Assembly (NCBI GenBank): GCA_023957755.1
Contig: JAMLGT010000008.1
Coordinates: 62,001-126,000 of the forward strand
Direction: 5' to 3'
DNA from: Chitinophagaceae bacterium
GTDB lineage: Bacteria > Bacteroidota > Bacteroidia > Chitinophagales > Chitinophagaceae
DNA: 64,000 nucleotides
Part shown: in pieces, positions 17,565 through 60,012 of the stretch
Layout: each line of letters begins with the position of its first letter
How positions within the stretch are numbered: position 1 is the stretch's first letter
Position numbers and translations under genes: made by a program
The notes under the pieces: model-generated
Seen by the model: only the letters and a program-made list of their open reading frames with translations
Databases searched by the model: none
What the model was told of the DNA's origin: nothing

Positions 17565-17565
17565 G

Positions 17566-17937: not shown

Positions 17938-17938
17938 T

Positions 17939-24490: not shown

Positions 24491-24526
24491 GTAAGTCCGG
24501 TTGAGTAATTAAGTAAAAAGAAAGAG

Positions 24527-30197: not shown

Positions 30198-30199
30198 TT

Positions 30200-30655
30200 A
30201 TGAATGTCTATCGAATTTCCAGGAGCAGGTACGCTGAAGATTTAACCGGAGAGGGCGCACGGTTATTTGGAGGCAGATGGAATAGTAAGAATGTACCATG
30301 TATCTATGCTTCCGAGTCCAGAGCTTTGGCAATGGTGGAATATTCCGTAAACGTAAATATGCATGATATTCCACGGGCACTTTCTCTTGTCACTTACGAA
30401 ATAGATGCTAAGAAGGTTGTGGAAATAGATGAAGAATTTCTTCCCGGAAATTGGAGAAATAGCCCTATTCCTAAACAAACTCAGAGTTTCGGAAGCTTAT
30501 TATTATCTGAAAAAAAATATGAAATAGTACGAATACCATCTGTGGTAATTCCTGAAGAATTTAATTTCTTAATTAATCCTAATCATCATAAGGGGAAGAT
30601 AAAGATAGTTTCCATCACCGACTTTCTTTATGATATCAGACTGAAAAAAGTATAG
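30200..30655 (+). CDS. RES-domain toxin
   Basis: The 151-residue protein shows the RES family pattern: VYRISRSRYAEDLTGEGAR at the N-terminus, GGRWNSKNVPCIYASES with the Arg and Tyr region, ALAMVEYSVN with the Glu, and a C-terminal core ending in SITDFLYDIRL. RES toxins degrade cellular NAD+ by phosphorolysis or hydrolysis. It is co-translated with the upstream antitoxin, a normal arrangement for this family. All key regions look intact. Confidence 0.87.
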   Translation: MNVYRISRSRYAEDLTGEGARLFGGRWNSKNVPCIYASESRALAMVEYSVNVNMHDIPRALSLVTYEIDAKKVVEIDEEFLPGNWRNSPIPKQTQSFGSLLLSEKKYEIVRIPSVVIPEEFNFLINPNHHKGKIKIVSITDFLYDIRLKKV

Positions 30656-39479: not shown

Positions 39480-40460
39480 TTAATTTCTATGACCGTGTTG
39501 AACACGGTCCAAATACACTTTGCCTTCAGCAGTGAAGGTAGCTCCCTTTGTTGTAGGATCGAGTTTTGAATGTTTGAGATTTGATCCTATTATGGTGTGA
39601 TTGAGTACCATAACAACCCCGGGTAATTTTTCAATATAGTCTGCCAGTTTGCTCAGGTTAGGCAGATAATCTTCTCTATCGGGACTGACCATGCTGCCAT
39701 ATTCAGTAATCCATATTGGCTTATTGTTTGGATTATAATAAGCTTTTTGAAAATCAGCTATTCTCCCTTCAACGGTATTACCTTCAGATAGATATATATG
39801 ATAAGTAAAAGCATCAATGTCTCTTATTCTATCTGCTGTTTCCCGGTTCCATGTAGATTGTCTTGCAATTTTGCTTGTCTTACCTATATGTAATGCAGCA
39901 ATCCTAGCATTTGGGAATGCCTTCCTTAGCTTTGGTACCCAAATGTTTACCGTATCTGCATAGGCGTTACCATCTGGAAATTGGGTCTCATACCCATGAA
40001 TTTGTGAATAGAGTTCGTTACCCAGTTCCAGAAATTTGATTTCTATCCCCAGCGATTTAGCTTTGTTAAGCATCGCGATTTGGTCATCTGCCGAACTGTT
40101 TACAACATCCAGGTCAAATACGGCCTGGGCTCCGGTGGCTTCAATAAGCTTTTTGAGGTCTTCTATAGGATGCACAATATCATTCTTTCCGGGCTTGCTA
40201 AATGTACCTGTTTTCCAATTCCAACCGTGGGTAATGGTGCCTCCCGGGTACCTAATGATTTGAGGCTTAAGCTCTTTGATGTTGCTAATAAGCGATTGAC
40301 TGTTGAGAGGAGGAAGGAATCTCCAGTTTTGATTAAATCCTATCAGCCTTCCTTCATGTGCAATGGGTTTCTCATCATCAGGAAGCGTAGAAGTTGTTTT
40401 TGTTGACTTGCAGAATGGGAGAGTGAAGAACAGGATAATCAGGAAGGGTAGGTTTTTCAT
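39480..40460 (-). CDS. putative clan GH-A glycoside hydrolase, paralog 1
   Basis: The 326-residue protein has an N-terminal export signal with Cys17 as possible lipidation site. The core looks like a TIM-barrel retaining glycosidase: IIRYPGGTITHGWNWKTG, the acid/base-type motif LELGNEL (Glu149) and the nucleophile-type motif WITEYG (Glu253). The RYPGG opening recalls GH51, GH39 and GH79 enzymes, but I cannot place the family. Two paralogs in the window share all these motifs. It is first in a probable pair with the esterase-like gene, and the shared 13-bp element lies 95 bp upstream. Confidence 0.72.
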   Translation of the reverse strand: MKNLPFLIILFFTLPFCKSTKTTSTLPDDEKPIAHEGRLIGFNQNWRFLPPLNSQSLISNIKELKPQIIRYPGGTITHGWNWKTGTFSKPGKNDIVHPIEDLKKLIEATGAQAVFDLDVVNSSADDQIAMLNKAKSLGIEIKFLELGNELYSQIHGYETQFPDGNAYADTVNIWVPKLRKAFPNARIAALHIGKTSKIARQSTWNRETADRIRDIDAFTYHIYLSEGNTVEGRIADFQKAYYNPNNKPIWITEYGSMVSPDREDYLPNLSKLADYIEKLPGVVMVLNHTIIGSNLKHSKLDPTTKGATFTAEGKVYLDRVQHGHRN

Positions 40461-40554
40461 AAAAGTTTAATGAAGCTTAAATGACAAATTTTTTGATAAA
40501 AAGGTGATGGTTTTTCTTCACCTAAAAATAGACAATGAAATATCTACAGACCTA

Positions 40555-40567
40555 GTATTATTTTAAC
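40555..40567 (-). promoter_or_regulatory. shared PUL element, copy 1 (variant)
   Basis: The minus strand reads GTTAAAATAATAC, two differences from the GATAAAATAGTAC form. TATTTTTA, one base off TAnnTTTG, begins 24 bp downstream (40530-40523), about 63 bp before the start codon of the glycosidase gene at 40460. Confidence 0.45.
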
Positions 40568-40636
40568 TGATTCAGAAAGGAATCCTTGAGGAAATTAATT
40601 GCACCTTTATTTCTGAATGTTTTGATTTGCCTGCTT

Positions 40637-41626
40637 TTATTTGCTTCTTTCCTTTGCAATCTCTATAAACATTTTCCCTTCATCGGTAAATTTTGTGCCG
40701 TTTTCCTTTCTTGTGAGTTTCGATCTATTCACTCCAGCACTGACCATAGCGTGATTGAGCGCCATTGTTATGGGGGGATAGGATTCTACAAAATCGATTA
40801 ATTTTTTCAAATTTTCCAGATAACCCGGGCTATTGTAATTGGCCATATTTCCGTACTCGGTAATCCAGACAGGCTTATTGTCAGGGTTGAAGTAAACTTC
40901 CAGAAATTGTTTCTTCCTGAATTCAAAGTCCTTCTTCTCCGGGATATAAATATGATAGGTGAAGGCGTCTATATCTTTTATTCTCTTTGCAGTTTGTTCG
41001 TTCCATGTCAATTGCCGCTGGTTAGTACCCGGCTTGCCTATATGTACAGCCGCAATTTTTGCTTTTGGGAATGCAGCTCTTATTTTCGGTACCCACGCGT
41101 TTACTGTATCTGCATAGGCATTTCCATCAGGAAACCATTTTTCGTAGCCATGTAGTCTGGAATATAACTCATTTCCCAGTTCTATGAATTCCACATCAAC
41201 TCCAAGTGCATTAGCTTTTTCGAGCATGGCCAGTTGGTCTTCAAAGGTGCTGTACACTACATCGAGATCGAAAACAATTTTTACCCCTGTAAGGTCCACC
41301 AATTTTTTCACGTCCTCAATAGGATGAATAAAGTCCTCAGGAAGCGGGTCTTTATGGGTTCCTGTTCTCCAGTGCCATCCGTGGGTCACGGTGCCTCCGG
41401 GATATCTGATAGTCTGCGGAGCCAGTTCCTTTATGTTGTTTATAAAGGTGGTATTATCCAGTGAAGGCAGATATCTCCAATTTTGGTTAAATCCTGTGAG
41501 TAAGTTTGACTGCTGATGCGGTTCTTTCTTTTTTGACTGAGTCTGAGTCTCCTGAGAAGTGGCACAGGATGAAGTGAAGAATAGAAGTGTAATTAGCGTA
41601 TAGAGTTTTGAAATGGTGGTGGACAT
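40637..41626 (-). CDS. putative clan GH-A glycoside hydrolase, paralog 2
   Basis: The 329-residue lipoprotein (TSSC, Cys21) is closely similar to the gene product encoded just downstream: NQNWRYLPSLDN, TIRYPGGTVTHGWHWRTG, IELGNEL (Glu153) and WITEYG (Glu257). Those two glutamates are at the expected distance for a retaining TIM-barrel enzyme. The compact size, about 300 mature residues, fits a single catalytic domain. It has its own copy of the shared element upstream, so it may be transcribed separately from paralog 1. Confidence 0.72.
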   Translation of the reverse strand: MSTTISKLYTLITLLFFTSSCATSQETQTQSKKKEPHQQSNLLTGFNQNWRYLPSLDNTTFINNIKELAPQTIRYPGGTVTHGWHWRTGTHKDPLPEDFIHPIEDVKKLVDLTGVKIVFDLDVVYSTFEDQLAMLEKANALGVDVEFIELGNELYSRLHGYEKWFPDGNAYADTVNAWVPKIRAAFPKAKIAAVHIGKPGTNQRQLTWNEQTAKRIKDIDAFTYHIYIPEKKDFEFRKKQFLEVYFNPDNKPVWITEYGNMANYNSPGYLENLKKLIDFVESYPPITMALNHAMVSAGVNRSKLTRKENGTKFTDEGKMFIEIAKERSK

Positions 41627-41712
41627 AGTTATTAGGCGTTGAAAGTTATTGAATGAAGAGATTATGTTGAAACCTAAATTGTGAAATTATTTCGAATTAT
41701 TTAATGGGATAA

Positions 41713-41725
41713 GTACTATTTTATC
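41713..41725 (-). promoter_or_regulatory. shared PUL element, copy 2
   Basis: The minus strand reads GATAAAATAGTAC exactly. A weak -7-like TAATTTCA begins 23 bp downstream, about 55 bp before the start codon at 41626. The site lies inside a longer interrupted palindrome, GGATAA...TTATCC (41707-41726). Confidence 0.55.
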
Positions 41726-41853
41726 CAATCCATAAAAGAACAATTTTAACTGGCATTTGTAAGTGGCTATCGAATAGAACTAATCACAATAGAATACTTT
41801 GGAAGTGAAAGTTCTTTAGTGGAAGAGTCTTTTGGTACTATTGGGAAGCCAGA

Positions 41854-41866
41854 GATAAAATAGTAT
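41854..41866 (+). promoter_or_regulatory. shared PUL element, copy 3
   Basis: The plus strand reads GATAAAATAGTAT, one base off the full form. A perfect TAnnTTTG box, TATATTTG, begins 24 bp downstream at 41891. An inverted half copy, GTACTATT, lies at 41835-41842. It should drive the sulfatase operon starting at 42119. Confidence 0.6.
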
Positions 41867-42118
41867 TACAAAGTGAGCTTGTAGTATTTTTATATTTGCT
41901 TTAGATGTTCCGAAAGTATTGAAGGTTGAAAGAATGACTTCCGGAAAACTGAGAATTAAGGATGGTTTTTGGTTTGGAAGAAATAGATAAAGTGAAATTA
42001 TATCATGATATGAATCTCCTTTTTAACATTCTCTTCCACACGATATCATTTTAAAAATGCTCTATTCATTCTGTGGATAGAGGGGGGCTGATTGTAAATC
42101 GTTAGAATATTTGCTCAA

Positions 42119-43678
42119 ATGAAAATTTCTCTTGGTTTTATATTATTGTTTTTGCTGGGAATCTCTTCCGACAGATGCACTCAAAATGAGGAGGCTGAGA
42201 AGCCTAATATTTTGTATATAATGGCTGATGACTTAGCCTTTCAGGCTATTAGCGCGTATGGTGGATTGTATAAGGAAATCGCACCTACTCCTAATATTGA
42301 CAGGCTGGCAAAGGAAGGAATGTTATTCAGTAACGCATTTTGTACAAACAGTATTTGTGGGCCAAGCAGGGCGGTGATACTAACAGGAAAATATAGTCAC
42401 CTAAATGGATTTTATAAGAACGAAGGGGGCGATCCTTTTGATAGCACTCAGGTAACTTTCCCAAAGTTGCTCCAGAGTGCAGGATATGCAACAGCGGTGA
42501 TCGGGAAGTGGCATTTATGGAGTCAGCCTACAGGGTTTGATTATTTTAAGTATCACATTGATAATGCGGAGCAGGGGGTATATTGGAATCCTACGTTCAA
42601 TGAAAATGGAAAATCAGTTTCCGAAAAGGGTTATGCCACCACACTCACAGGCGATTTTGCAATTAACTGGCTTGATAATTTGAGAGATAAGTCCAAACCT
42701 TTTTGTCTTCTCTATCAGTTTAAGGCTCCCCATCGTCCCTGGGATCCGGATAGTATGAATCTTGATTTGTTTGGTTCTGCAGAAATGCCTTTTCCTTCAA
42801 CCTTTGATGATAATTATGCTACAAGGGAACTTACTGCCGGCAAAACCATGATGACCATCGAAGGCTATCTTTCAAACAGGGATCTAAAACTTACGCCCCC
42901 TCCGGGTCTTGGAGGAAAAGAATTGGCAAAGTGGAATGTACAGGGGGTTAGGGGAGAATACGTCTCGCCTTCTGACACCTTAAAAGGGGAGGCTTTGAAG
43001 CGCTGGAAATTTCAACGATATATTAAAGATTACCTCGCCACTGTTAAATCTCTTGATGATAATGTAGGTAGAATATTGGAATATCTGGATAACCATAATC
43101 TTACAAAGAATACCATTGTTGTTTTCACATCAGATCAAGGTTTTTACCTTGGGGAACATGGGTGGTATGATAAGAGATTTATGTACGAAGAGTCGCTGAG
43201 GATGCCTCTCATAATCCGATATCCCGGTAAAATAAAACCCGGTAGTAAGTCTGATGGGATGGTGGTGAATATTGATTATGCCCCCACCCTGCTTAGTCTT
43301 GCAGGTGTGAAGGTGCCTGAAGAAATGCAGGGAGAAAGTTTTGAATCCTTATTTACGGGTAGGGTGCCATCCGGGTGGCGAAACTCAATGTACTACCATT
43401 ATTATGAGTATCCTAAATGGCACAATGTGCAGCCTCATTATGGGATTCGAACGGATAGATACAAACTCATTCATTTCTATTATGATATAGATGTGTGGGA
43501 GTTTTATGATCTCCAATCGGATCCTCATGAACTAAATAATAGCTACAACAATCCAAAATATAAAGAGGTAATCTCTAATTTGAAAACCCAGTTAGCTGAT
43601 TTACAAAAGAAGTATAAGGACACGGCTACTCTGGATGAAATGCGGGAAGTTACCACAAAGGGTATGGTGAAATACTAA
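42119..43678 (+). CDS. S1-family sulfatase 1 (Cys type)
   Basis: The 519-residue protein has an export signal and the N-terminal metal site MADDLAF (Asp37-Asp38). The formylglycine precursor Cys80 lies in SICGPSRAVILTG, a full C-x-P-S-R signature. KWHLW and the metal site FTSDQGFYLGEHGWYDKR are present. The insert with LTPPPGLGGKELAKW and the overall layout resemble N-acetylglucosamine-6-sulfatase-like members, a tentative hint. It should remove sulfate esters from glycan fragments in the periplasm. It heads an operon of three sulfatases, a hydrolase and a fourth sulfatase. Confidence 0.88.
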   Translation: MKISLGFILLFLLGISSDRCTQNEEAEKPNILYIMADDLAFQAISAYGGLYKEIAPTPNIDRLAKEGMLFSNAFCTNSICGPSRAVILTGKYSHLNGFYKNEGGDPFDSTQVTFPKLLQSAGYATAVIGKWHLWSQPTGFDYFKYHIDNAEQGVYWNPTFNENGKSVSEKGYATTLTGDFAINWLDNLRDKSKPFCLLYQFKAPHRPWDPDSMNLDLFGSAEMPFPSTFDDNYATRELTAGKTMMTIEGYLSNRDLKLTPPPGLGGKELAKWNVQGVRGEYVSPSDTLKGEALKRWKFQRYIKDYLATVKSLDDNVGRILEYLDNHNLTKNTIVVFTSDQGFYLGEHGWYDKRFMYEESLRMPLIIRYPGKIKPGSKSDGMVVNIDYAPTLLSLAGVKVPEEMQGESFESLFTGRVPSGWRNSMYYHYYEYPKWHNVQPHYGIRTDRYKLIHFYYDIDVWEFYDLQSDPHELNNSYNNPKYKEVISNLKTQLADLQKKYKDTATLDEMREVTTKGMVKY

Positions 43679-43706
43679 TATCAAATTATTAAGCGATAAA
43701 GTACCA

Positions 43707-45218
43707 ATGAGTATGATTAGATATTTGAGAAGCCTGGGGACGGCAATAATGATTTTAATAGTCCATACGGCTTTTTCTCAAAAGGTAGAGAAGAAGCCCA
43801 ATATTTTGCTTATAATATCTGATGACTTGCGAACAGAGTTAAATTGCTATGGTGAATCTTACATAAAATCTCCTAACATTGATAAACTGGCAAATGAAGG
43901 GACTGTCTTTACCAGTGCTTATGTGCAACAGGCTGTTTGTGCCGCATCCCGCGCAAGCTTTCTTACTGGAGTACGACCTAATACAACCGGTGTAGATTAT
44001 CCTTACAGCGAATATTTTGTAAATACTTTCTGGCCTTCACACCCGTCGATTGCAGAGTATTTTGAAAGGCAGAATTATGAAGTCCGCACTTTTGGGAAAA
44101 TTAATCATGGCCCTCAGGATAAGATTAAGACTTTGAACTATATTCCAAAAGGTTTGAAATTTTATGCATCGGAAGAGAATATCAAATTAGGTGGGCCAAA
44201 GGGCAGAAGCAAAGAAACTCCTCCGTTTGAGAATGCGGATGTGCCTGACGAGGCGTATCAGGATGGGATGATAGCTAAGGAGGCTGTTAAAGCAATTAAA
44301 GATCTAGCAGGAGGAAAAGAACCGTTTTTTCTGGCGGTAGGGTTCAAGAAACCTCATCTGCCGTTTTGTGCGCCCAAAAAATATTGGGATATGTACAATG
44401 ACAGTGAAATTCAATTAGCTGTCAATCCAGAACTGCCTAAAGGTGCACCTTCCTACGCAGTGTCTCAGAAAGAACTTAATTCTTATAGGACTCCTCCAAA
44501 AGTAAATGGAGAGTTTTCGCCAGAGTACCAGAAAACACTAAAGCATGGTTATGCAGCATGTGTTTCGTATGTGGATGCGCAGGTTGGTAAACTCATGAAC
44601 CAGCTTAAGGAAAGCAAAGCACTTGAAAACACCATTGTTATTTTTATGTCAGATCATGGATGGCATCTGGGTGAACAGGGAACATGGGGTAAGCAGACTA
44701 ATTACGAAAATGCAACAAGAGCACCTTTGATTATCTCATTGCCCGGGAAGGCGAGAGGGGTAAGGGTGAATCAATTTGTGGAATACGTGGATATCTATCC
44801 AACACTTGTGGAATTAGCAGGTTTTGAGCCTGCTGATTATCTGGAGGGAAATAGTTTTCTGCCATTGTTCGATAATCCATCGAAGGAATGGAAGAGCGCG
44901 GCATTCAGCCAGTTTCCGCGTAATGGATTTGAAGGATATGCTATCAGAACGAAAGACTTCAGATATGTGGAATGGAGGGCAGACAAGGATAGCAGCGTGA
45001 TGTCCATAGAGTTGTATGATCATAGGTCAGATCCGATCGAGTCTGTCAATGTAGCGTCAGAAAAGAAGTATGGGGAGGTGGTGAAGAAATTAGCAGCAAG
45101 ACTTAAAGCCGGATGGAAGGCTGCATTGCCTGCAGGTGTTTATAACTATTCTAATAACAGGCCCGCTCCACCGTCTGTTGGCTGGGGACCTGAAGCAAAG
45201 TCGGGCGATGGAGGGTAG
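43707..45218 (+). CDS. S1-family sulfatase 2 (iduronate-2-sulfatase-like)
   Basis: The 503-residue protein has a Sec signal ending near AFSQ, the metal site ISDDLRT and formylglycine precursor Cys78 in VCAASRASFLTG. The Ala at the usual Pro position (C-A-A-S-R) and the stretch FKKPHLPFCAPKKYWDMY are typical of iduronate-2-sulfatase-like members. FMSDHGWHLGEQGTWGK forms the later metal site. If specificity follows the family, the target carries 2-O-sulfated uronate, but subfamily members act on other sugars too. It starts 28 bp after the preceding sulfatase gene. Confidence 0.88.
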   Translation: MSMIRYLRSLGTAIMILIVHTAFSQKVEKKPNILLIISDDLRTELNCYGESYIKSPNIDKLANEGTVFTSAYVQQAVCAASRASFLTGVRPNTTGVDYPYSEYFVNTFWPSHPSIAEYFERQNYEVRTFGKINHGPQDKIKTLNYIPKGLKFYASEENIKLGGPKGRSKETPPFENADVPDEAYQDGMIAKEAVKAIKDLAGGKEPFFLAVGFKKPHLPFCAPKKYWDMYNDSEIQLAVNPELPKGAPSYAVSQKELNSYRTPPKVNGEFSPEYQKTLKHGYAACVSYVDAQVGKLMNQLKESKALENTIVIFMSDHGWHLGEQGTWGKQTNYENATRAPLIISLPGKARGVRVNQFVEYVDIYPTLVELAGFEPADYLEGNSFLPLFDNPSKEWKSAAFSQFPRNGFEGYAIRTKDFRYVEWRADKDSSVMSIELYDHRSDPIESVNVASEKKYGEVVKKLAARLKAGWKAALPAGVYNYSNNRPAPPSVGWGPEAKSGDGG

Positions 45219-45242
45219 CTGTTTGACTGAAAATGTTTTATT

Positions 45243-46751
45243 ATGAAGATTTTACGTTTTTCCATATTGATGTTTTCGCTTGTTCTCTTTTCTACGGCAA
45301 TATTTGCACAAAATCCGCTGCAGCCAAATATTGTAGTTATCATGGCGGATGATATGGGATACGGTGATATTTCGGCATTAAATCCGGATTCAAAAATTCA
45401 AACACCTGTACTGGATCAGCTTATTAAGGAAGGCCGGTCTCTTTCTGAGGCACATACAAGTGCAGCATTATGTACGCCTGCACGTTATGCATTTCTGACA
45501 GGTAGATATAATTTCCGAACAGGCATTACCGGTGTGGCAAGCGGATATTCAAAACCCATGATCGAGTACGAAAGGGAAACAGTCGCTTCTCTTTTAAAGA
45601 AGGCAGGTTACCAGACTGCCATTATTGGTAAGTGGCATTTGGGCCTTGAGTGGTTGCCGCTAGATTCTTCGAGGCCTGTTTTTACAAAAGATGATTTCAT
45701 GCCCGAAAATCTCAATGTAGATTATTCAAGGCCGGTTAGGGGAGTGAATGAAGTAGGTTTTGATTATTCATTCATTTCTCCTGCAGGTAATAATCTGGCA
45801 CCTTATTGCTTTATACGGAATGGACAGGTGGTTAACATGCCAACTGCTCAAATCGAGTCGCAGGTTACGGGAGCTTATTTTAACGACTATGAAAAAAGGC
45901 ATAATGGTGGTGCCATAGCACCTGATTACAAGTTGATAAATACTTTGGAAACGCTTACCGGTGAGGCAGTGAATTATTTAGAGGATGCTTCAAAGAATAA
46001 TAAGCCTTTTTTTCTATTTTTTTCGTTAACAGCACCTCACTTCCCCTGGGTACCTCAAAAGAGATTCGTGGGCCGATCAGCTGCCGGCTCCTATGGTGAT
46101 TTTGTAACTGAAATAGATGCAACAGTTGGAACCATACTCGACAAAATCAAAGCTCTGGGAGCAGATGACAACACGCTGGTGATCTTTACGGCGGATAATG
46201 GAGGTGCTACACCTGAAGGGTTCACCGAGAAATATCATCACGAAATGAATTATGGCAGGCGAGGCCAGAAAGGAGAAATATGGGAAGGGGGCGTTCGTGT
46301 ACCTTTTATTGTTAGATGGCCGGGTGTTGTGAAGAATGGGAAGAGTTCGGATAAAAGAATAAGCTTTACAGATATGTTAGCATCGTTTGCCCATATCGCA
46401 GGTACAGAGATAAATAGAAAGTTTGGTGAAGATAGCTATGATGTATCCTCTGTTATTTTGGGTACAAGAAATGAAAGAAGGGTGGAAAGAGGCGCTATTG
46501 TTAATCAGAGTGGAAATGTCAGGGGGCTTTCGATTACTGAGAATGGATGGAAATTGATTCCCTACGGTTATGGAAGGCATGGATTAATACCCGCCGAAGG
46601 TGGTCAGCCCAAAGGACAACTATATGACCTTAATAATGATAAGATGGAAACAAAGAATCTTTATAACCATCATCCGGAAATTGTTAGCAGGTTATCCTCC
46701 CTTTTAGAAAAGTATATTAGTGAAGGTTATAGCCGGCCTGGCAAACAGTAA
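45243..46751 (+). CDS. S1-family sulfatase 3 (arylsulfatase-like)
   Basis: The 502-residue protein has a Sec signal ending near IFAQ, the metal site MADDMGYGD, formylglycine precursor Cys77 in LCTPARYAFLTGRYNFRTG, KWHLG and the later metal site FTADNGGATPEG. The YGRRGQKGEIWEGGVRVPF loop is typical of arylsulfatase A-like enzymes. It lies 24 bp after the second sulfatase gene and 13 bp before an alpha/beta hydrolase gene, so all are one operon. Substrate cannot be read from the sequence. Confidence 0.88.
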   Translation: MKILRFSILMFSLVLFSTAIFAQNPLQPNIVVIMADDMGYGDISALNPDSKIQTPVLDQLIKEGRSLSEAHTSAALCTPARYAFLTGRYNFRTGITGVASGYSKPMIEYERETVASLLKKAGYQTAIIGKWHLGLEWLPLDSSRPVFTKDDFMPENLNVDYSRPVRGVNEVGFDYSFISPAGNNLAPYCFIRNGQVVNMPTAQIESQVTGAYFNDYEKRHNGGAIAPDYKLINTLETLTGEAVNYLEDASKNNKPFFLFFSLTAPHFPWVPQKRFVGRSAAGSYGDFVTEIDATVGTILDKIKALGADDNTLVIFTADNGGATPEGFTEKYHHEMNYGRRGQKGEIWEGGVRVPFIVRWPGVVKNGKSSDKRISFTDMLASFAHIAGTEINRKFGEDSYDVSSVILGTRNERRVERGAIVNQSGNVRGLSITENGWKLIPYGYGRHGLIPAEGGQPKGQLYDLNNDKMETKNLYNHHPEIVSRLSSLLEKYISEGYSRPGKQ

Positions 46752-46764
46752 AATCGATTAATCT

Positions 46765-47484
46765 ATGAAACAGCTTATTTATAGTTTGTTATTGTTTTCT
46801 TCCGTTGCAGTTTATGGGCAGAAGGCAGTACCTACTCGATCCCATGTTAAGTATGGAGATGGTGAGAATAGTTGGCTCAATATATATCAGGCCAAAAGCG
46901 ATGTTCCTACTCCGGTAGTAGTCTGGGCGCATGCCAATGGACAGGATGTTACAGCCGATAATTTTCCGGCAGGTGTGTGGAAAGCCTTGCAGGCAGCCGG
47001 AATTTCTGTAATTAGTTGGGAGTCGGTACCCAGAATTACCCAAGTGGAAGAAGTAGGCCAGGGAGAAAAGGATTTTGATGCAGTTATGAATTGGTTAAAT
47101 ACCCATTACAAGGAATATAATATTGATGTCAATAAGGTTGTTATTTCGGGTCAGTCCAGAGGTTCTATTATTTCTTTTGCCGGGGCCAATAAATTTTCTG
47201 TAAATATCAGGGGGGCTTATTTTGTGCAGGCACTTCCCAATATGGCCTGGAAAGTCCGGGATTTTACAGAAGATATTTCCCAATCGTCTCCGCTGATGGT
47301 AATGGCTTATGCTGAGGCTCCTGGCAGTAAAGATGGGCATACCCCGGATAATGGTAAAAAGATTGAAAACAGATATAAGGAATTAGGGATAGCGAATCGA
47401 TTTACACTGTATCATTCATTAGGCAAAGAGGGGCTTTATAGTCATTTGGCGGCGTTTGTGAAAAAAGTAACTGTTGAAAAATGA
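46765..47484 (+). CDS. exported alpha/beta hydrolase
   Basis: The 239-residue protein has a Sec signal ending near VAVYGQ and a small alpha/beta-hydrolase core: VVVWAHANGQ as oxyanion region, nucleophile Ser131 in SGQSRGS, and a His in LYSHLAAF near the end. It may be a carbohydrate esterase acting on acyl groups of the same substrate as the sulfatases. The next sulfatase gene starts within its stop codon (ATGA overlap), showing translational coupling. Confidence 0.75.
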   Translation: MKQLIYSLLLFSSVAVYGQKAVPTRSHVKYGDGENSWLNIYQAKSDVPTPVVVWAHANGQDVTADNFPAGVWKALQAAGISVISWESVPRITQVEEVGQGEKDFDAVMNWLNTHYKEYNIDVNKVVISGQSRGSIISFAGANKFSVNIRGAYFVQALPNMAWKVRDFTEDISQSSPLMVMAYAEAPGSKDGHTPDNGKKIENRYKELGIANRFTLYHSLGKEGLYSHLAAFVKKVTVEK

Positions 47485-49304
47485 AACATAGTAGAAAGTT
47501 GATATTTCTTTCATTAACAGCCGGTGTGATGATGACATTGGTACCCGAATTTGGGTTTTCCCAGGATAAAAGTATGGGAAGCCGGCCTAATATTCTTTTG
47601 ATCCAGACCGATGACATGGGTTACGACGATATGAGTTTTAATGGACGGAAAGATCTGGAAACTCCGCACCTCGATAAACTGGCTTCTCAATCGGTCCGAT
47701 TTACTGATTTTACAGTGGCTTCTGTTTGTGCGCCGTCGAGGGCGATGTTGTTAACCGGGCGGCATTTTCTGAAGACAGGGGTAGCTGGTGTGCATGGAGG
47801 TCATGACTTTATTAACCTTGATGAAACACTCCTACCAGAGCTTTTTAAGGAGGCGGGGTATGCCACTGGGATGTTTGGGAAATGGCATAGTGGAAAAACA
47901 GATGGTTATTTTCCGTGGGACAGGGGTTTTGATGAAGCCTATATGGCAAAACTGTACCAGTATTTTCCAAGTGAAGGAAGATATAATGACGTTGCAGTAA
48001 AGGAACAGAGATGGTCCACCGAAGTAATAACTGATTATGGCATTGACTTTATCAGGAAACACAAGGATAAACCTTTCTTTGCTTACGTCTCTTATTTTGA
48101 TCCTCATGGGCTGTGGAGGGCTCCTGAAGAAAAAGTAAAAAAATATCTGGATAAAGGTCTGGCGCGTGGGTATGCTACCTTGTGTGCAATGGTAGATCTG
48201 GTTGATGGAGAGATAGGCAGATTGCTTGCTTCTTTGGACAAAGAAGGTCTTGCAGGGAATACGATTGTTGTATTCATGAGCGATAATGGCCCACAGCGAT
48301 CAGATCGAAATCTGGGAGTACTTTCTGAATCCGAATGGGAACAAAGAAATCCCAGTGGTTTCCCGGGATGGAAAGCAACAAACTGGGCTAACGGTGTTAA
48401 ATCGCCCTTGTTTTTCAGGTGGCCTGGTCATTACAAACCGGGATACGTACCACGTCTGGTGGACATGACTGATATACTACCTACGATGATGGATCTAATT
48501 GGAGAGCGTACCTATAAGACAAGGCACCCTCTTGACGGGAGAAGTATTAAACCATATCTGTCTTACCATTTAGATGTGCTACCTGAAAAGAAAGTCTATC
48601 TTGCAAAATGGTTCGTTCAAGTGGGGACGGCAAAAGGAGAGTCTTATCTGCCGATTTCTCCGGGTGTTAGATCCAGGATTCGATTTGACGATCAGACCCT
48701 TGCAGTTAGAGATGAACATTTCGTATTGTTGATGAATCCAAGTCGTCAGCCAAGACCTGATATTTCCGGGAACCCTCTTTTGTTTGATTTGACCCGTGAT
48801 AGCCTGGAAACAGAAAACGTGGCCTCACGCTTTCCTGAGAAAGTGAAATCCATGACTGAAGATTTGAGGGCATGGTATAAGGACATTGTGGAAAATCAAA
48901 AATCTTTTCAGGCTCCCTGGTTTCAAATAGGCTGGAAAGGGAAGCGTGTAGTAGAAGTGCCTGCTTACGGTACAAACTGTATTTCTGGTAACCTGATAAA
49001 CAGTGACCATTTTCTTGGAAACTGGAAAGGAGTGGGGGATAAAGCAACCTACCAATTCAATGTGCTTCTGCCGGGAAAATACAGAATAGAGTTGTTTACT
49101 TCAGATACAGTAGGTGAAGGAATGTCTATGAAATTTTCTTTTGAGAAAAAAGCAATTGTTAAGGAATTAGTTCCCCAGACCCAGCAGCTGGTTGGAGAAT
49201 TGTTCTTTAATAAGGGGGAAGGGATATTCACAATAGAACTGACGAAAAACAGAGACAATGCAGTCATTAACCGGATGACTGAAATACGCCTCACCAGGCT
49301 TTAA
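47481..49304 (+). CDS. S1-family sulfatase 4 with C-terminal beta domain
   Basis: The 607-residue protein has a Sec signal ending near FGFSQ, metal site TDDMGYDD and formylglycine precursor Cys83 in VCAPSRAMLLTG, plus KWHSG and FMSDNGPQRSDRN. Beyond the normal sulfatase end near residue 480 is a beta-sandwich-like module of about 120 residues (GYGTNCISGN to the end) that resembles carbohydrate-binding or accessory domains fused to sulfatases. It is the last gene of the five-gene operon and converges on the minus-strand sulfatase gene. Confidence 0.87.
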   Translation: MKHSRKLIFLSLTAGVMMTLVPEFGFSQDKSMGSRPNILLIQTDDMGYDDMSFNGRKDLETPHLDKLASQSVRFTDFTVASVCAPSRAMLLTGRHFLKTGVAGVHGGHDFINLDETLLPELFKEAGYATGMFGKWHSGKTDGYFPWDRGFDEAYMAKLYQYFPSEGRYNDVAVKEQRWSTEVITDYGIDFIRKHKDKPFFAYVSYFDPHGLWRAPEEKVKKYLDKGLARGYATLCAMVDLVDGEIGRLLASLDKEGLAGNTIVVFMSDNGPQRSDRNLGVLSESEWEQRNPSGFPGWKATNWANGVKSPLFFRWPGHYKPGYVPRLVDMTDILPTMMDLIGERTYKTRHPLDGRSIKPYLSYHLDVLPEKKVYLAKWFVQVGTAKGESYLPISPGVRSRIRFDDQTLAVRDEHFVLLMNPSRQPRPDISGNPLLFDLTRDSLETENVASRFPEKVKSMTEDLRAWYKDIVENQKSFQAPWFQIGWKGKRVVEVPAYGTNCISGNLINSDHFLGNWKGVGDKATYQFNVLLPGKYRIELFTSDTVGEGMSMKFSFEKKAIVKELVPQTQQLVGELFFNKGEGIFTIELTKNRDNAVINRMTEIRLTRL

Positions 49305-49345
49305 TTTCTGTTTAATGGTTTCTGATTAATTGCCTAACAAAAACG

Positions 49346-50713
49346 TTATCTATACTCGTTATACGCTGAGAAAGACTTAAATATTTCTTCCATCTGTTTA
49401 GCTTTTTCGGGGTTGCTCTGGATCAAATTAGTGCGTTCTGCGGGATCAGCGTCCAGGTCGAAAAGCTCTGAAATAGCAGCTATTATTTCGCCAGTCGCGG
49501 GGTTCTTCCATTCAGGAGCGTCCCGATATTTCCATTTTCCCAGTTTTACGGCTTCGGGTTTTCCGTGATTCACGATAAAAATAGGTTTGTGTATAAAATC
49601 CATGTCCCCATTTGTGCCTGTCAATAGTGCGGCAATGCTTTGCCCATCCAATTGCTTTCCTATCGGGATCTTTGAATTTGTCCATTCAGCTATAGTAGGT
49701 AGTAAATCAAGATTACTTATTGGCACAGACGATTTTATTTTCTTATTAATGTCTCTTGAGGAGAATACAATAAAAGGTACTCTTGCACCCCCTTCATAAG
49801 AGAGTGCTTTCGCACCTCGGAATATTCCGGCTGTTCCTGCATGATTTCTTTTTGTTACGCCATCTTTTTCTATCCGTGGCGGATACAAGCTCCAGGGACC
49901 ATTGTCACTTGAGAAGATGATGATTGTATTGTCCAATAAATTTTTATTCTTTAGTGCCTGAACAATTTTTCTGGTGCTTTCATCTATTTCAGAAACCACA
50001 GCTCCTAATGGCCCACCAGCCTTGCTTCTGTTTTCAGACAGCTGTGCTGCATAGTACACAGGAAGGTGGGGCATGTTGTGTGCTACATATAAAAGGAAGG
50101 GTTTGTCGGGATTTTGGTTTTCTATCACTCTGACTGCCTCCTTTGTGTAGGTTTGAGTAAGTATAGAATCATGAGGTGCATAAATTTCAGGGGTACTGTT
50201 TCTGAAGAGTTTAATGACAGTATCGGTCTGTACGTATGGCTTTCGATAGTCATGGCTGTATAGCATTCCAAAGAAGAAATCGAACCCCTGACCGTTAGGT
50301 TTATTAAAATGATGCTGATCTCCCAGATGCCATTTTCCTACCATAGCAGTATAATACCCGTTATCTCTTAACATTTCGGCAATGGTAACCTCTTCATCAG
50401 GCAGTCCAAGGGTAGACCCTGGTGCAATAGGGTCGGGCAGGTTATATCTGGATGCATATCTTCCTGTGAGCAATGACGCTCGCGAGGGAGTACAGGAAGG
50501 ACTCGATACAATGTAATTATTGGATACGAATCCTTCATTCCCCAGGCTGTCCAGAAAAGGTGTTTTAATTACAGGGTTACCATAAATTCCCAGATCAGAA
50601 TATCCCATATCGTCTGTAAGTATAAGTACGATGTTTGGTTTTATCTGTCCTTCAGTTTGGGAGATGAACAATGCACTTAAGAAAGTAATGGATAGAATGA
50701 AAACTGATTTCAT
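49346..50713 (-). CDS. S1-family sulfatase 5, on the opposite strand
   Basis: The 455-residue protein has a Sec signal ending near QTEGQ, metal site LTDDMGYSD, formylglycine precursor Cys74 in SCTPSRASLLTGRYASR, KWHLG and FSSDNGPWSL. It is the shortest sulfatase of the locus and contains only the catalytic fold. It is monocistronic, facing the plus-strand sulfatase operon. I found no copy of the shared 13-bp element in its upstream region, unlike every other unit of the locus whose promoter lies in the window. Confidence 0.88.
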   Translation of the reverse strand: MKSVFILSITFLSALFISQTEGQIKPNIVLILTDDMGYSDLGIYGNPVIKTPFLDSLGNEGFVSNNYIVSSPSCTPSRASLLTGRYASRYNLPDPIAPGSTLGLPDEEVTIAEMLRDNGYYTAMVGKWHLGDQHHFNKPNGQGFDFFFGMLYSHDYRKPYVQTDTVIKLFRNSTPEIYAPHDSILTQTYTKEAVRVIENQNPDKPFLLYVAHNMPHLPVYYAAQLSENRSKAGGPLGAVVSEIDESTRKIVQALKNKNLLDNTIIIFSSDNGPWSLYPPRIEKDGVTKRNHAGTAGIFRGAKALSYEGGARVPFIVFSSRDINKKIKSSVPISNLDLLPTIAEWTNSKIPIGKQLDGQSIAALLTGTNGDMDFIHKPIFIVNHGKPEAVKLGKWKYRDAPEWKNPATGEIIAAISELFDLDADPAERTNLIQSNPEKAKQMEEIFKSFSAYNEYR

Positions 50714-50817
50714 AAATAATCAGGCTATTGGCTAATCAAATGACTGTTGAAAATTACTCTAAAAAGGGGACTGTTCACCAGATTTGCGGTTAACAGGAAT
50801 TTGAGGCGTAATGAAAT

Positions 50818-50830
50818 GATAAAATAGTAC
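50818..50830 (+). promoter_or_regulatory. shared PUL element, copy 4
   Basis: GATAAAATAGTAC lies 104 bp ahead of the sulfatase start at 50935. No -7 box is at 23-24 bp; TACATATG (50847-50854) and TATATTTT (50863-50870) are imperfect candidates at 16 and 32 bp, so promoter spacing differs here or the true box is degenerate. Confidence 0.5.
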
Positions 50831-50934
50831 ATGCTGGAATAGGCACTACATATGGAGTAAGTTATATTTTTACAGGGAATGGTTGATGGCTTTCACCATT
50901 ATTTTGAATTGTCTCTTCAAAATAGAAATCAGGA

Positions 50935-52710
50935 ATGGGTCTTATTAAAAAATATATCATCAGGTTGATACTTGTGCTTATTTGGGCTATTCCCTGCTTT
51001 GGAGGGTTTGCCCGGAGTAGCCTTACGATGGAGCGTCAAAGTAAACCCAATGTGATATTGATTTTGGTTGACGATATGGGATATGGTGATTTGTCGTGTC
51101 TGGGAGGCCCATATCTGAAAACACCCGCGATAGATAAGTTGTATGCAGAGAGTGTTCGCCTTACTGATTTTCATGTAGATCCTACATGCGCACCTACACG
51201 GGCATCACTCTTTACCGGGAAGTATTCAGCAAAGACCGGAGTATGGCATACTTTAGCAGGCAGATCATTTCCTGATAAAGACGAAGTATTCCTATCTGAA
51301 ATATTTGTAGAGAATGGATATCATACAGGGATATTCGGAAAGTGGCATCTGGGAGATAATTACCCCTACCTTCCTCAATACCGTGGGTTTCATGAAGTGC
51401 TGACCTTCAGGGGTGGTGGAGTAGGGCAGATTGATGATTTCTGGCACAACGATTATTTTGATGATATATATGTTCACAATGGAAAGAATGAGTTCTTTGA
51501 AGGTTATTGCACAGATGTTTGGTTTGAAAATGCAATTAATTTTATAGAAAGGAATAAGGCCGCTCCATTCTTTTGTTACATATCTGCTAATGCGCCTCAT
51601 TATCCGTATAATGTTCCCAATAAATATACACTTCCTATGAGAGAGAAGGGGATTGATGATAATACTTCAAGGTATTTAGGGATGATTTCCAATATTGATG
51701 AGAATATCCAAAAGTTATCCCTTCAACTTGAGAAGCTTGCATTGTTAGAAAATACAATAATTATTTTTATGTCTGACAATGGCAGGTCGGCCGTGTCACT
51801 TCCAAAGCCCGGGCAGCCTTACTTTTTTAATGCCGGAATGCGAGGATTGAAAGGAAGTAGTTACGATGGTGGACACAGAGTTCCCTTTTTTATCAGATGG
51901 CCGGGAGGAGGGATAGAGGGGGGTAAGGATATAAACACCTTGCTGGCCGGGTTTGATCTGATGCCCACCTTGATAAATCTTTGTGGGTTAAGAAATGAAC
52001 ACAAAATCGATTTTGATGGCAGGAGCTTTCTGCCACTTTTAAAGGATAACCGGGCTTCATGGGAGGAAAGGACACTTGTTGTTCACAACCAGCGTACTGA
52101 ATCACCTGTTAAGTGGAGAAATTGTGTAGTCATGACAAGCCGTTACAGATTGGTAAATGGAAAAGAACTTTATGATATAAAAGAAGATCCCGGACAGAAT
52201 AAAGATATTTCTTCAGAGAATACGCTGTTAGTAGAACAGTTGCGTATGGAGTACGAAAAATGGTGGCAGGATATTTCTAATCGTTTTCAACAGTTTAACA
52301 GGTTCTACTTGGGTGATGATTTAGAGAATCCGACCTCATTGTCATTGGTAGATTGGCATGTAGATACATTATTTAGGATTTGGGATCAGGATGTTGTGCG
52401 TCAGAGAAACTTTGGGAATGGGTTTTGGGCAGTCAAAATTGTAAAGGATGGAATTTATGAGTTTACTTGCAGAACCTTTCCCAGGCAGGAAGATACAAGG
52501 CTGGATGTGGTCAGAGTGAGAATAAAAGTTGGCGGGCACGATGTAGAACAATCTTGTGATCCGGGTACTTCTGAAGTTAAAGTGAAAATTCCGCTTCGAG
52601 CCGGAGAAACTTTCCTTCAAACATGGTTTTATGAACCAGGAGGCAAAAGTTATGGTATCCCCTTTCTATATGTCGAGCGATTAAAGGAATTGATTTTGTT
52701 CACCAAATAA
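50935..52710 (+). CDS. S1-family sulfatase 6 with C-terminal beta domain
   Basis: The 591-residue protein has an N-terminal export signal, metal site VDDMGYGDLS, formylglycine precursor Cys85 in TCAPTRASLFTGKYSAKTG, KWHLG and FMSDNGRSAVS. Residues after about 465 form an extra beta-type module rich in Trp and Phe (SLVDWHVDTLF to the end), comparable in place to that of sulfatase 4. The next gene, a GH29-family protein, begins 4 bp after its stop, so both act in one operon and probably on the same glycan. Confidence 0.87.
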   Translation: MGLIKKYIIRLILVLIWAIPCFGGFARSSLTMERQSKPNVILILVDDMGYGDLSCLGGPYLKTPAIDKLYAESVRLTDFHVDPTCAPTRASLFTGKYSAKTGVWHTLAGRSFPDKDEVFLSEIFVENGYHTGIFGKWHLGDNYPYLPQYRGFHEVLTFRGGGVGQIDDFWHNDYFDDIYVHNGKNEFFEGYCTDVWFENAINFIERNKAAPFFCYISANAPHYPYNVPNKYTLPMREKGIDDNTSRYLGMISNIDENIQKLSLQLEKLALLENTIIIFMSDNGRSAVSLPKPGQPYFFNAGMRGLKGSSYDGGHRVPFFIRWPGGGIEGGKDINTLLAGFDLMPTLINLCGLRNEHKIDFDGRSFLPLLKDNRASWEERTLVVHNQRTESPVKWRNCVVMTSRYRLVNGKELYDIKEDPGQNKDISSENTLLVEQLRMEYEKWWQDISNRFQQFNRFYLGDDLENPTSLSLVDWHVDTLFRIWDQDVVRQRNFGNGFWAVKIVKDGIYEFTCRTFPRQEDTRLDVVRVRIKVGGHDVEQSCDPGTSEVKVKIPLRAGETFLQTWFYEPGGKSYGIPFLYVERLKELILFTK

Positions 52711-52714
52711 ATAA

Positions 52715-54148
52715 ATGAATGAAATGAAAAGATTTTTTTTGTCTCTGGTAGGTATATTTTTTATCTCTATTGTGGATATTTCCCAGGTCATGGCACAGCC
52801 TGAAGAAGGCAGATGGAAACCATCCTGGGACAATCTGAAGCAACATAAGGCACCTGAGTGGCTCCTGGATGCCAAGATTGGAATTCAGTATGTAGGCGCT
52901 CCCCGTACCTTTAACGATCAGGATTATTGGAACTGGAGCAGGGCGCAGCAGCGGGCGCGCCAACTGGCCGCGGAGGAAGGTTATGAGAGCATTACAGAAA
53001 TTGATCGCAAGGCAAAGAATCTGAATGTGGATTATGTTTGGCCAATAGAATATGACGATCCCAAATCAGCGCTTTCTGCTTATGTTGATTTGGGAGCAAA
53101 GTTCATTGTCTCAATGGAGGCGGCTGTAATATATGGAACCGAGGGACTTCGTATGACAAATGCTGAGATTCAGGAGGCCAGACGGCTGGGTTTGAAAGTT
53201 GGGTTACATTATAATTTCCAGCGATGGGGAGGTCAACCCTCCATCGGTGATCCGGGTTTTGTTAATTGGATGATACCTTCTTTGAAGAAGGCTATTTCAG
53301 AGACTGAAGCAGATTTTCTGTTCTTTGATGGCAAACAGCTACCCTCCTCATATTTGAAAACGCCACAATTGGTTTCGTGGTACTATAACTGGGCAGATAA
53401 GAATGATAAGGAAGTCTGGGTAAATGATGACCTGGGTAGTGAGTTTGGGCCTTTTGAGGCACCCTGTGATGTAATTGGATTTGAATGTATGACTATGAAT
53501 GGGGTTTCTGTACAGCCCTGGCTTCTTTGGGATTGCCTTCGAAACGAATGGAATTGTTGGGTCAATGAATATGGAATGCATGTGAGGACTGGAGATAAAT
53601 GGCAATGGATGTATAAGCCTACTGATGAACTTCTTCAGGTGTTTATCGATGCAGTTAGCAAAGGAGGTGGGTGGTTGATTCAGATGATTAATACAGAAAC
53701 AGCATGGCGAACTCTTGCTCCGATAGGTGAATGGCTAAAAATAAACGGAGAAGCAATTTATAATACCCGACCTTATCGTGATGCTGTCCCGAATGTCAAG
53801 ACTGCACCCAATAGAGAAGAGGTGAAGTTAAATGGGAGATTTGATCCCTCTTTAAAGACGCAGGACTGGTGGTATAAGTGGAGTTTTGTGTTCAAAGAGT
53901 CGCTAAAGGGGGCACCATGGTATTTAAACAAGTCGAAGGATGGCAGCACTTTATATGCTATTCATTGGGGATGGCCCGGCGCATCCGTACTTCTCCAGGA
54001 TATAAAGCCTGTTAAAGGATCTGATATCTATTTGTTAGGGTCTTCCGATAAACTGAAATGGAAGCAGGTGGGTAATGATGTGCTCATACAAACTCCTAAA
54101 GATAAACCATGTGATTATGCGTATTCTTTCAGGGTGCAGCTAAAGTAA
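52715..54148 (+). CDS. divergent GH29-family (alpha-L-fucosidase-like) protein
   Basis: The 477-residue protein has a Sec signal ending near QVMAQ. Several regions match GH29: PEWLLDAKIGIQ, LGAKFIVSMEA, ARRLGLKVGLHYNFQRW, the nucleophile region FLFFDGKQ (Asp205), and AVSKGGGWLIQM followed by GEWLKINGEAIYNTRPY. The usual HWG after the first motif and the HHDGF substrate motif after the second are absent. It may act on a modified fucoside, a different sugar, or have lost activity. It is co-transcribed with sulfatase 6 and followed after 94 bp by a sugar isomerase-like gene. Confidence 0.78.
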   Translation: MNEMKRFFLSLVGIFFISIVDISQVMAQPEEGRWKPSWDNLKQHKAPEWLLDAKIGIQYVGAPRTFNDQDYWNWSRAQQRARQLAAEEGYESITEIDRKAKNLNVDYVWPIEYDDPKSALSAYVDLGAKFIVSMEAAVIYGTEGLRMTNAEIQEARRLGLKVGLHYNFQRWGGQPSIGDPGFVNWMIPSLKKAISETEADFLFFDGKQLPSSYLKTPQLVSWYYNWADKNDKEVWVNDDLGSEFGPFEAPCDVIGFECMTMNGVSVQPWLLWDCLRNEWNCWVNEYGMHVRTGDKWQWMYKPTDELLQVFIDAVSKGGGWLIQMINTETAWRTLAPIGEWLKINGEAIYNTRPYRDAVPNVKTAPNREEVKLNGRFDPSLKTQDWWYKWSFVFKESLKGAPWYLNKSKDGSTLYAIHWGWPGASVLLQDIKPVKGSDIYLLGSSDKLKWKQVGNDVLIQTPKDKPCDYAYSFRVQLK

Positions 54149-54242
54149 GATACCCTGGTTGTTGTGGGTCGTGCATTTTGCACTCTATTACGATGTGCGG
54201 ATTTGAAAGAAAGAATATTCTCAATTAAAAGTAAATAAGCAG

Positions 54243-55067
54243 ATGAAAAAAATATGGATTGTAATCTTCTTGTTAGTAACTCAGTATTGCGGATTCTCAC
54301 AAGTGTTTCCGGAAGACAGGTTGGGCTGGAAAGTGGGGGTACAGACCTATACATTTAAGGAGTTTAGCTTTTACGAGGCGTTGAGTAAAGCTGATAGCTG
54401 TGGGGTACGGTATCTTGAATGTTTCAGAAATATGCAAATAGGAGGCGGGCTTGAAGGAAAGATGGACTTCAATATGGATGAAGCAAAAAAGATACAAATT
54501 AAAAAATGGCTTACCGACCGTAAAATGAGATTAACAGGTTATGGTGTGGTCAACCTCAAATCAGAAGAGGCTTGGCGTAAACTCTTTGAGTTCGGAAAGT
54601 ATATGGGAATTGAAACTTTTACTGCAGAACCGGAAGAACAATTTTTGCCATTCCTTTCTAATCTGTGTGATGAATTCGAAATTAACCTGGCAATTCATAA
54701 TCATGCCTATCCATCGCACTACTGGTATCCGCCTGTAATATTACAGGCAATAAACCATGAGTTGAGTGACAGAATTGGTGCATGTGCGGATTTAGGGCAT
54801 TGGGTTAGGTCGGGATTGAACCCTGTAGCCTGCCTGCAGTTGTTAGGTGATAAGGTTAAGTGGGTTCACATGAAGGATATTAGTGTTTATGGTGAAGAAG
54901 GACATTCGGTAGTCTGGGGGAAAGGAGTAATAAATCTTCCCCAAGTCATAGAAACTTTAAAGAGGGTAGGCTTCAGTGGACAACTCAGTGCCGAATATGA
55001 GTATAATTGGTTTCATAACACAATTGATGTGAAGCAAAGTATCAGCTTTTTCAGAAGTCTATTATAG
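54243..55067 (+). CDS. exported sugar phosphate isomerase/epimerase-like TIM barrel
   Basis: The 274-residue protein has a clear Sec signal (MKKIWIVIFLLVTQYCGFSQ) ahead of an AP-endonuclease-2/xylose-isomerase-like barrel: GWKVGVQTYTFKEFSF, LTGYGVVNL, LAIHNHAYPSHYW, GACADLGHWVRSG, VKWVHMKDI and LSAEYEYNW. The metal ligands of the fold (Glu, His, Asp, Glu) appear to be kept. Exported members are common in Bacteroidota sugar loci but their substrates are mostly unknown. It probably modifies a free sugar released in the periplasm. It follows the GH29-like gene on the same strand. Confidence 0.75.
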   Translation: MKKIWIVIFLLVTQYCGFSQVFPEDRLGWKVGVQTYTFKEFSFYEALSKADSCGVRYLECFRNMQIGGGLEGKMDFNMDEAKKIQIKKWLTDRKMRLTGYGVVNLKSEEAWRKLFEFGKYMGIETFTAEPEEQFLPFLSNLCDEFEINLAIHNHAYPSHYWYPPVILQAINHELSDRIGACADLGHWVRSGLNPVACLQLLGDKVKWVHMKDISVYGEEGHSVVWGKGVINLPQVIETLKRVGFSGQLSAEYEYNWFHNTIDVKQSISFFRSLL

Positions 55068-55189
55068 GTAGTAATAAGTTTCTGTAATTTCTTTCCCATA
55101 TTTTTTGTGCGGACTCAGACATTTCTAGTGAATGATTGTACTAGAATTGAAGATGGATTTGTCGCGCATTTGGCCATCGGTAAAGGTTT

Positions 55190-55202
55190 GATAAAATAGT
55201 AC
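55190..55202 (+). promoter_or_regulatory. shared PUL element, copy 5
   Basis: GATAAAATAGTAC is identical to copies 2 and 4. A perfect TAnnTTTG box, TACATTTG (55226-55233), begins 23 bp downstream, and the SusC-like start codon is 99 bp past the element. Confidence 0.62.
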
Positions 55203-55225
55203 AAGGATACCCTAATCTCTGGTAG

Positions 55226-55233
55226 TACATTTG
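55226..55233 (+). promoter_or_regulatory. TAnnTTTG -7 box of the susCD operon
   Basis: TACATTTG matches the Bacteroidota -7 consensus; transcription would start near 55240 with a leader of about 60 nt. There is no TTTG at -33; the shared element ends just upstream of that position instead, as expected for activator-dependent promoters. Confidence 0.55.
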
Positions 55234-58445: not shown

Positions 58446-58457
58446 AAATCTTAAATC

Positions 58458-60011: not shown

Positions 60012-60012
60012 T

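Follow-up and report, generated by a model that had tools for sequence, protein, structure and literature searches.

A 13-bp element, GATAAAATAGTAC, recurs ahead of the genes of a sulfatase locus in a 64,000-nucleotide stretch of the genome of a Chitinophagaceae bacterium (assembly GCA_023957755.1, contig JAMLGT010000008.1, positions 62,001 to 126,000; hereafter the window). The element is most likely the predicted promoter-proximal recognition site of an AraC-family regulator encoded in the same locus, which would activate several of its units (we put the probability at about 0.87), because the sites are conserved, lie at a fixed distance from a promoter box and are linked to orthologues of the regulator. 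The assembly comprises 3.67 Mb in 35 contigs; coordinates that are negative or exceed 64000 continue the window numbering along the same contig. The copies of the element are listed below with the gap to the gene that each precedes. Boxes are scored as matches to the six fixed bases of TAnnTTTG, at an offset counted downstream of the element, and counterparts are those in G134, a genome placed in the same genus by the tool's grouping.

40555..40567 (-): GTTAAAATAATAC, two mismatches; upstream of 39480-40460 (-), gap 94 bp; box 5/6 at +24
41713..41725 (-): GATAAAATAGTAC, exact; upstream of 40637-41626 (-), gap 86 bp; box 4/6 at +23; counterpart 41845 (-)
41738-41750 (-): GTTAAAATTGTTC, weak second copy, 25 bp upstream of the 41713 copy
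41854..41866 (+): GATAAAATAGTAT, one mismatch; heads the sulfatase unit 42119-49304 (+), gap 252 bp; box TATATTTG, 6/6 at +24; counterpart 42006 (+)
50818..50830 (+): GATAAAATAGTAC, exact; heads a sulfatase, 50935-52710 (+), and a fucosidase-like gene, 52715-54148 (+), gap 104 bp; counterpart 50943 (+)
55190..55202 (+): GATAAAATAGTAC, exact; heads SusC 55302-58445 (+), SusD 58458-60011 (+) and a sulfatase 60013-61599 (+), gap 99 bp; box TACATTTG, 6/6 at +23; counterpart 55192 (+)
64553 (+), 70787 (-) and 70907 (-): further copies past the window, giving eight in all, out to about 70.9 kb

Five of these copies had been described in the initial annotation, and on rescanning, their coordinates, strands and mismatch counts were all correct, as were the gaps of 86-252 bp to the start codons (94, 86, 252, 104 and 99 bp when recomputed from the table of open reading frames, ORFs). 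A TAnnTTTG-like box had been placed at +23/24 in four of the five; this holds for 40555, 41854 and 55190, including the two perfect boxes (41854 and 55190), but the box of the 41713 copy is weak. The units, which we infer to be five separate transcription units, do hold glycosidases, sulfatases and the SusCD pair by their Pfam matches. The extent of the locus needs correcting: five copies is right for the window, but the locus is larger and contains eight.

The least certain copy is 40555, which lies between two genes of the same strand. In a matrix built from 11 sites of the genome itself and of G134 (the letters of 64553 and 70907 were included, those of 70787 were not), it is the weakest of the eight, with a score of 15.9. 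Only two other sites in 164 kb of the contig score as high, at -37944 (16.0) and 100159 (15.9), and both are inside genes.

Occurrence of the element and its link to an AraC-family regulator

The initial annotation had suggested aligning the same promoters in related genomes. G134 is syntenic through the region (82% identity in SusC), and seven of the eight copies have counterparts there: the four listed above and those at 64705 (+), 70873 (-) and 70991 (-). The 70873 site is counted by position, because its score of 14.3 is no higher than that of a few in-gene matches in G134. Promoter sequences are otherwise much diverged between the two genomes. The 40555 copy is the one without a counterpart, the corresponding gap in G134 being about 30 bp, but it is present in a closer relative, G383, together with counterparts of 41713 and 41854. 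In G383 a 189-amino-acid (aa) fragment of the AraC-family protein is 100% identical and most proteins of the left-hand side are 92-94% identical. Between our genome and G134 the AraC-family protein is 91% identical, which exceeds the values for the locus's sulfatases, glycosidases and SusCD.

Within the assembly, exact copies of GATAAAATAGTAC occur three times, all in the locus and within 14 kb. An order-2 Markov model predicts 0.24 exact copies per genome, or 0.004 per 64 kb. Allowing one mismatch gives 14 matches genome-wide, four of them in the locus, compared with six for the pattern read backwards. Eight of the ten outside the locus are inside ORFs; another (L008) is directed away from a SusC-like gene, and the last (L014) precedes a gene that looks sigma-factor-like by eye. 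A looser pattern, GNTAAAAWARTAY, has 24 matches against 15 for its reversed control. Seven of these belong to the locus; in the remaining 17 the box score at +22 to +26 never exceeds 4/6. On contig C9, a pair of copies separated by 14 kb was considered as a second locus and rejected, as both are inside ORFs. These pattern scans show no excess of the element outside the locus, and the many unrelated hits lacking promoter preference that a whole-genome scan might have returned did not appear. With up to three mismatches there is no enrichment across the window (29 matches against 25.5 expected from shuffles), so that the argument has to rely on conservation and the near-exact copies.

The initial annotation had reported no regulator of the AraC, hybrid two-component or extracytoplasmic function (ECF) sigma type in the window and had left the protein that reads the element unnamed. 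The first statement stands for the ORFs scanned: Pfam was run on 43 of the 58 listed window ORFs (the remaining 15 overlap or abut larger ORFs) and on nine flank proteins, and the 43 gave no match to any of these three types. No sigma factor of any kind was matched among the 43 and the nine. The second statement no longer holds. An AraC-type gene lies about 7 kb past the right edge (70968-71852, +), and the protein could not be named earlier because the window ends before this gene. Its 294-aa product matches HTH_18 (1.1e-21) and HTH_AraC (3.2e-11) at the C-terminus, the double helix-turn-helix of the AraC/XylS family, while the N-terminus has no Pfam match. In a Foldseek search with a predicted model the best matches were AraC-family proteins, although the whole-protein template modelling (TM) score was only about 0.38 of the query. 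The model aligns with AraC-family DNA-binding domains at root-mean-square deviations of 1.4-2.4 Å (3lsg, 3oio and 2k9s, for example), and its strand-rich N-terminal part aligns with the RhaR and AraC sensor domains at a TM of 0.57-0.66 relative to the target. We rejected its identity as a hybrid two-component system (HTCS) regulator: at 294 aa it has AraC-type domains only, with no sensor kinase or receiver.

Orthologues of the regulator were found in 142 of 394 genomes of the family, our own included (E 1e-60). In a first set of 28 orthologue loci other than our own and that of G134, 26 have an upstream site scoring at least 12.5. A second set comprised 40 loci from 40 genomes and 28 genera, hand-picked from the listed matches and taken as regions of up to 20 kb; 16 were shared with the first set. 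In 35 of these 40 other Chitinophagaceae loci, a site scoring at least 13 with the matrix of our genome and G134 lies -30 to +600 from the start of araC. The background in the same regions is 31 sites in 762,911 bp, or 0.026 per equal stretch, and 100 column-permuted matrices found sites in a mean of 1.4 and a maximum of 5 of the 40 loci. The usual orientation is kept in 34 of the 40. A matrix-free check agrees: the five commonest 9-mers of the 40 upstream regions are fragments of the element. Among 30 SusC loci, scores of at least 19 are confined to our genome, G134 and five loci (L029, L030, L039, L040 and L048) whose SusC adjoins a regulator orthologue.

That the copies arose by chance, or as by-products of duplicated promoters, might be argued from the unenriched window and from the relatedness of the genes at 39480 and 40637. 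Such an origin is hardly credible when three exact copies stand within 14 kb against 0.24 expected per genome, when counterparts occur across species and when the flanks of the copies do not resemble one another. The G134 counterparts, the 35 of 40 orthologue loci and the permuted matrices lead us to consider chance refuted.

A different proposal attributes binding of the element to an unlinked transcription factor and makes the AraC gene a mere companion of mannan-type genes. Co-travel is real: a close GH130 homologue is found in 84 genomes, of which 77 are in the regulator list, and linkage to the genes is therefore hard to separate from linkage to the regulator. Of the seven remaining GH130 genomes, four (L175-L178) are represented by contigs 3.5-13.5 kb long, and a pair of elements 117 bp apart stands at the extreme edge of L177. 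A fifth genome (L174) has three matches scoring 14-16. The last two (L172 and L173) have only an AraC homologue of 35-39% identity, and neither carries the element at that gene; L172 has no site, and L173 has a single one of 13.9 far from the homologue. The element occurs at araC itself, in a position relative to araC that is kept in 34 of 40 loci, and the 21-bp tandem layout described below is of the AraC type. We therefore regard an unlinked factor as unlikely and prefer the AraC-family protein of the locus as the one that would bind the element.

Site anatomy and promoter spacing

The sites of the relatives fall into two groups, 21 on the araC side (+1 to +62) and 33 on the promoter side in 32 loci (+131 to +233, with one at +487). 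Both are present in 19 loci, where the two whole sites are roughly 100-150 bp apart. A box of 5-6/6 stands at +23/24 in 30 of the 33 promoter-side copies and in one of the 21 araC-side copies; at control offsets of 14-17 and 28-31 there is none in 33. In our own genome a TAAATTTG box can be seen by eye 23 nt from the araC-side copy, toward araC, but such a box is not general in the relatives.

An element that takes the place of the -33 box at a fixed distance from the -7 box could also belong to the core promoter and be recognised by an alternative sigma factor. The TAnnTTTG-like -7 box is, however, of the ordinary Bacteroidota type (the -7/-33 consensus), at that distance a box is missing from 20 of the 21 araC-side copies, and the copies are paired beside one regulator. 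A sigma factor is thus very improbable, more so than an unlinked regulator. The fixed spacing in 30 of 33 copies, the seven counterparts in G134 and the lack of excess elsewhere in the genome bear out the proposal of the initial annotation that the element would be a dedicated activator site abutting the -33 position, here most likely that of the AraC-family protein.

The conserved core of the relatives' sites extends to GATAAAAWAGTAYTA. Promoter-side copies show a second half-site peak at -21 (mean score -12.95, compared with an average of -32.1 and a standard deviation of 4.4 for offsets beyond 8 bp, scored to -44). The best upstream match is at -20 to -22 in 17 of the 33, the half-site being degenerate, and araC-side copies of the relatives have no peak at -21. 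At araBAD, Escherichia coli AraC binds tandem half-sites about 21 bp apart that end near -35, with a further site near araC; the present case differs in its recognition sequence and in its Bacteroidota-type promoter. For the AraC-type domains of Bacteroides HTCS, the predicted sites described in PMC3878776 are direct repeats, on average 21 bp apart. The same source gives direct repeats whose centres are 67 or 77 bp apart for SusR-like regulators, a layout that we rejected for the present element, since the peak is at -21 and whole sites in the relatives are about 100-150 bp apart.

In many relatives (L094, L095, L099, L101, L104, L115, L117 and others) TTGCTATATGAGAAA lies at the start of the divergent gene, about 70 nt beyond the point where the promoter-side element begins. 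The leader downstream of the -7 box therefore appears to be very short and to have a conserved sequence immediately ahead of the start codon. TATGAGAAA is found in 15 of the 40 regions.

We envisage the following mechanism. The putative cupin-like domain at the N-terminus would bind a breakdown product of the polysaccharide, probably an imported manno-oligosaccharide. The liganded regulator would then occupy the element at the -33 position and recruit RNA polymerase to promoters that have a TAnnTTTG-like -7 box 23-24 nt further on and no -33 box, so that one regulator could turn on the glycosidase, sulfatase, SusCD and mannan-enzyme units jointly. In relatives the interval between araC and the divergent operon usually contains two copies. 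Activation would work through the one on the promoter side, which alone has a -7 box; the other, on the araC side, is probably used in autoregulation.

Several observations weigh against this reading. The main weakness is that the -21 offset ranks first of 60 in only one of our eight copies and in none of the seven of G134, though four of those seven have it among the top nine; a strong proximal half-site may be enough, or degeneracy may hide the distal half. The 50818 copy has at most 2/6 box bases at +22 to +26, and its box-like TATTTTTA (5/6) stands at +34 (50818-50870), about one helical turn further off than usual. The 50943 copy of G134 (contig C10) has the same spacing, also with TATTTTTA, and with an added turn the protein would still sit on the same helical face. 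Of the 40 orthologue loci, 16 were already in the first set (usual orientation in 14), so that the 24 new ones give 20 correctly oriented sites; five of the 40 have no site (L090, L096, L120, L123 and L126, the latter two of the same genus by the tool's grouping), and in L107 the sole match is weak and reversed. Beyond the family the link thins out. The regulator is matched in 27 of 345 genomes of a class-wide sample; the scan covered 27 loci, 23 of them non-family, and in nine of these 23 a site of at least 13 lies upstream of araC, with the usual orientation in five. Two of these five, at 47% identity, carry TATCTTTG at +23 by eye; six further non-family loci have the site on the opposite side of araC. 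Finally, finding the exact 15-mer somewhere in a genome is weakly indicative of the regulator, which is present in 25 of 41 such genomes against 142 of 394 overall. The 15-mer has 45 matches in the family, 14 of them within about 200 bp of a regulator orthologue by eye. We inspected 12 regions from 11 genomes, mostly 15-mer matches away from the regulator. One (L185) lies before SusC with a box of 5/6 at +24, and the G383 copies belong to the present locus; most of the others have no good box and few genes resembling those of the locus.

Genes of the locus and window

The genes around the element, and other regulators of the window, are as follows.

39480..41626 (-): two related glycosidase-like genes, Glyco_hydro_cc / GH53-like by Pfam, with an element upstream of each
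42119..54148: sulfatases at 42119, 43707, 45243, 47481 and 50935 (+), an esterase-like gene at 46765 and a GH29-like gene at 52715, by Pfam
49346-50713 (-): sulfatase, with no element directed at it
55302..61599 (+): SusC, SusD and the seventh sulfatase
Past the right edge: GH26 at 64596 (+), AGE epimerase at 65796 (-), GH130 at 66986 (-), MFS-type symporter at 68178 (-) and a second GH26 at 69575 (-)
Further past it: AraC-family regulator 70968-71852 (+), GMC oxidoreductase at 71884 (-) and GH3 at 75512 (+)
17566-17937: BlaI-type repressor
22730-23098: lone receiver domain
29703-30197: Xre-type antitoxin

Six of the seven sulfatases thus sit in element-headed units. A related SusD is present in three named records, all Chitinophagaceae metagenome assemblies, of which one is Niabella.

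Elsewhere in the window, 15789-17975 holds a BlaR-type M56 peptidase and the BlaI-type repressor; at the start codon of the repressor, two 20-bp units in tandem (17937-17975) may be an operator. Two neighbouring proteins of about 1,450 aa (1538-10467) with Sortilin-Vps10/BNR-type repeats look related, large and surface-type. The Xre-type antitoxin is paired with a RES-domain gene (29703-30655), likely a toxin-antitoxin module. Glycosyltransferases and a DUF7033/deacetylase-like gene at 19688-20809 and 23180-25642 perhaps form a small surface-polysaccharide cluster, and G134 is somewhat different here.

Substrate and related systems

Pfam places GH26, GH130, an AGE-type epimerase, a symporter and SusCD together in the locus, the gene set of a β-mannan locus. 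Around the 40 orthologous regulators, proteins of our locus find matches to SusC in at least 29 regions, GH26 in at least 28, GH130 in at least 22, AGE in at least 15 and a sulfatase in at least one; these are lower bounds, because the regions end 10 kb from araC. Given such neighbours (SusC, GH26, GH130 and AGE), the regulator goes with the use of β-mannan. By the kin of its regulator, the locus is predicted to be a β-mannan locus that also carries sulfatases, and, because the putative operator of a mannan-locus regulator heads units with six of the seven sulfatases, this arrangement suggests a sulfated β-mannan as the natural substrate. The published sulfated mannans that we encountered are α-mannans (PMC13063451 and PMC6298971, as far as the available text of each goes), and the β-mannan loci of PMC6298971 are called non-sulfated there. 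In one relative (L093, G065:C2), a sulfatase of our locus is matched at 31-33% by two stretches next to the orthologue and its AGE gene, perhaps a second sulfated-mannan locus.

The regulator resembles those of the Bacteroides thetaiotaomicron HTCS regulons, which likewise have an AraC-type DNA-binding domain and regulate SusCD and enzyme genes of a glycan locus (PMC3878776), but it is a one-component protein of 294 aa with no sensor kinase or receiver, and only the proximal half-site is conserved here. The β-mannan locus of Muricauda sp. MAR_2010_75 shares GH26, GH130, an epimerase and a symporter, and an AraC-type protein, FG28_RS02325, is among its induced proteins (PMC9860051); the likeness is one of description only. 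That locus differs in also having an HTCS, and the available portion of PMC9860051 mentions neither an operator nor a sulfatase. Another known sulfatase-bearing glycan locus, again likened by its available description only, similarly encodes an AraC-type regulator whose deletion impairs growth on the glycan, though the substrate differs and no operator sequence is given in that description. A literature search that excluded preprints and covered subscription papers thinly found no published operator of the present regulator.

An orphan promoter motif thereby becomes a testable regulator-operator pair, and GATAAAAWAGTAYTA together with a TAnnTTTG-like box at +23/24 would be a marker for assigning genes to the mannan regulon in Bacteroidota. 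The finding also provides a substrate hypothesis for a large sulfatase locus, as co-regulation by a mannan regulator points to a sulfated β-mannan. In its fullest form, to which we give even odds, a one-component AraC regulator of β-mannan use would be conserved in Chitinophagaceae and reach other Bacteroidia, and its operator in this genus would head a cassette of six of the seven sulfatases and a fucosidase-like gene, so that the substrate would be an undescribed sulfated, possibly fucosylated β-mannan.

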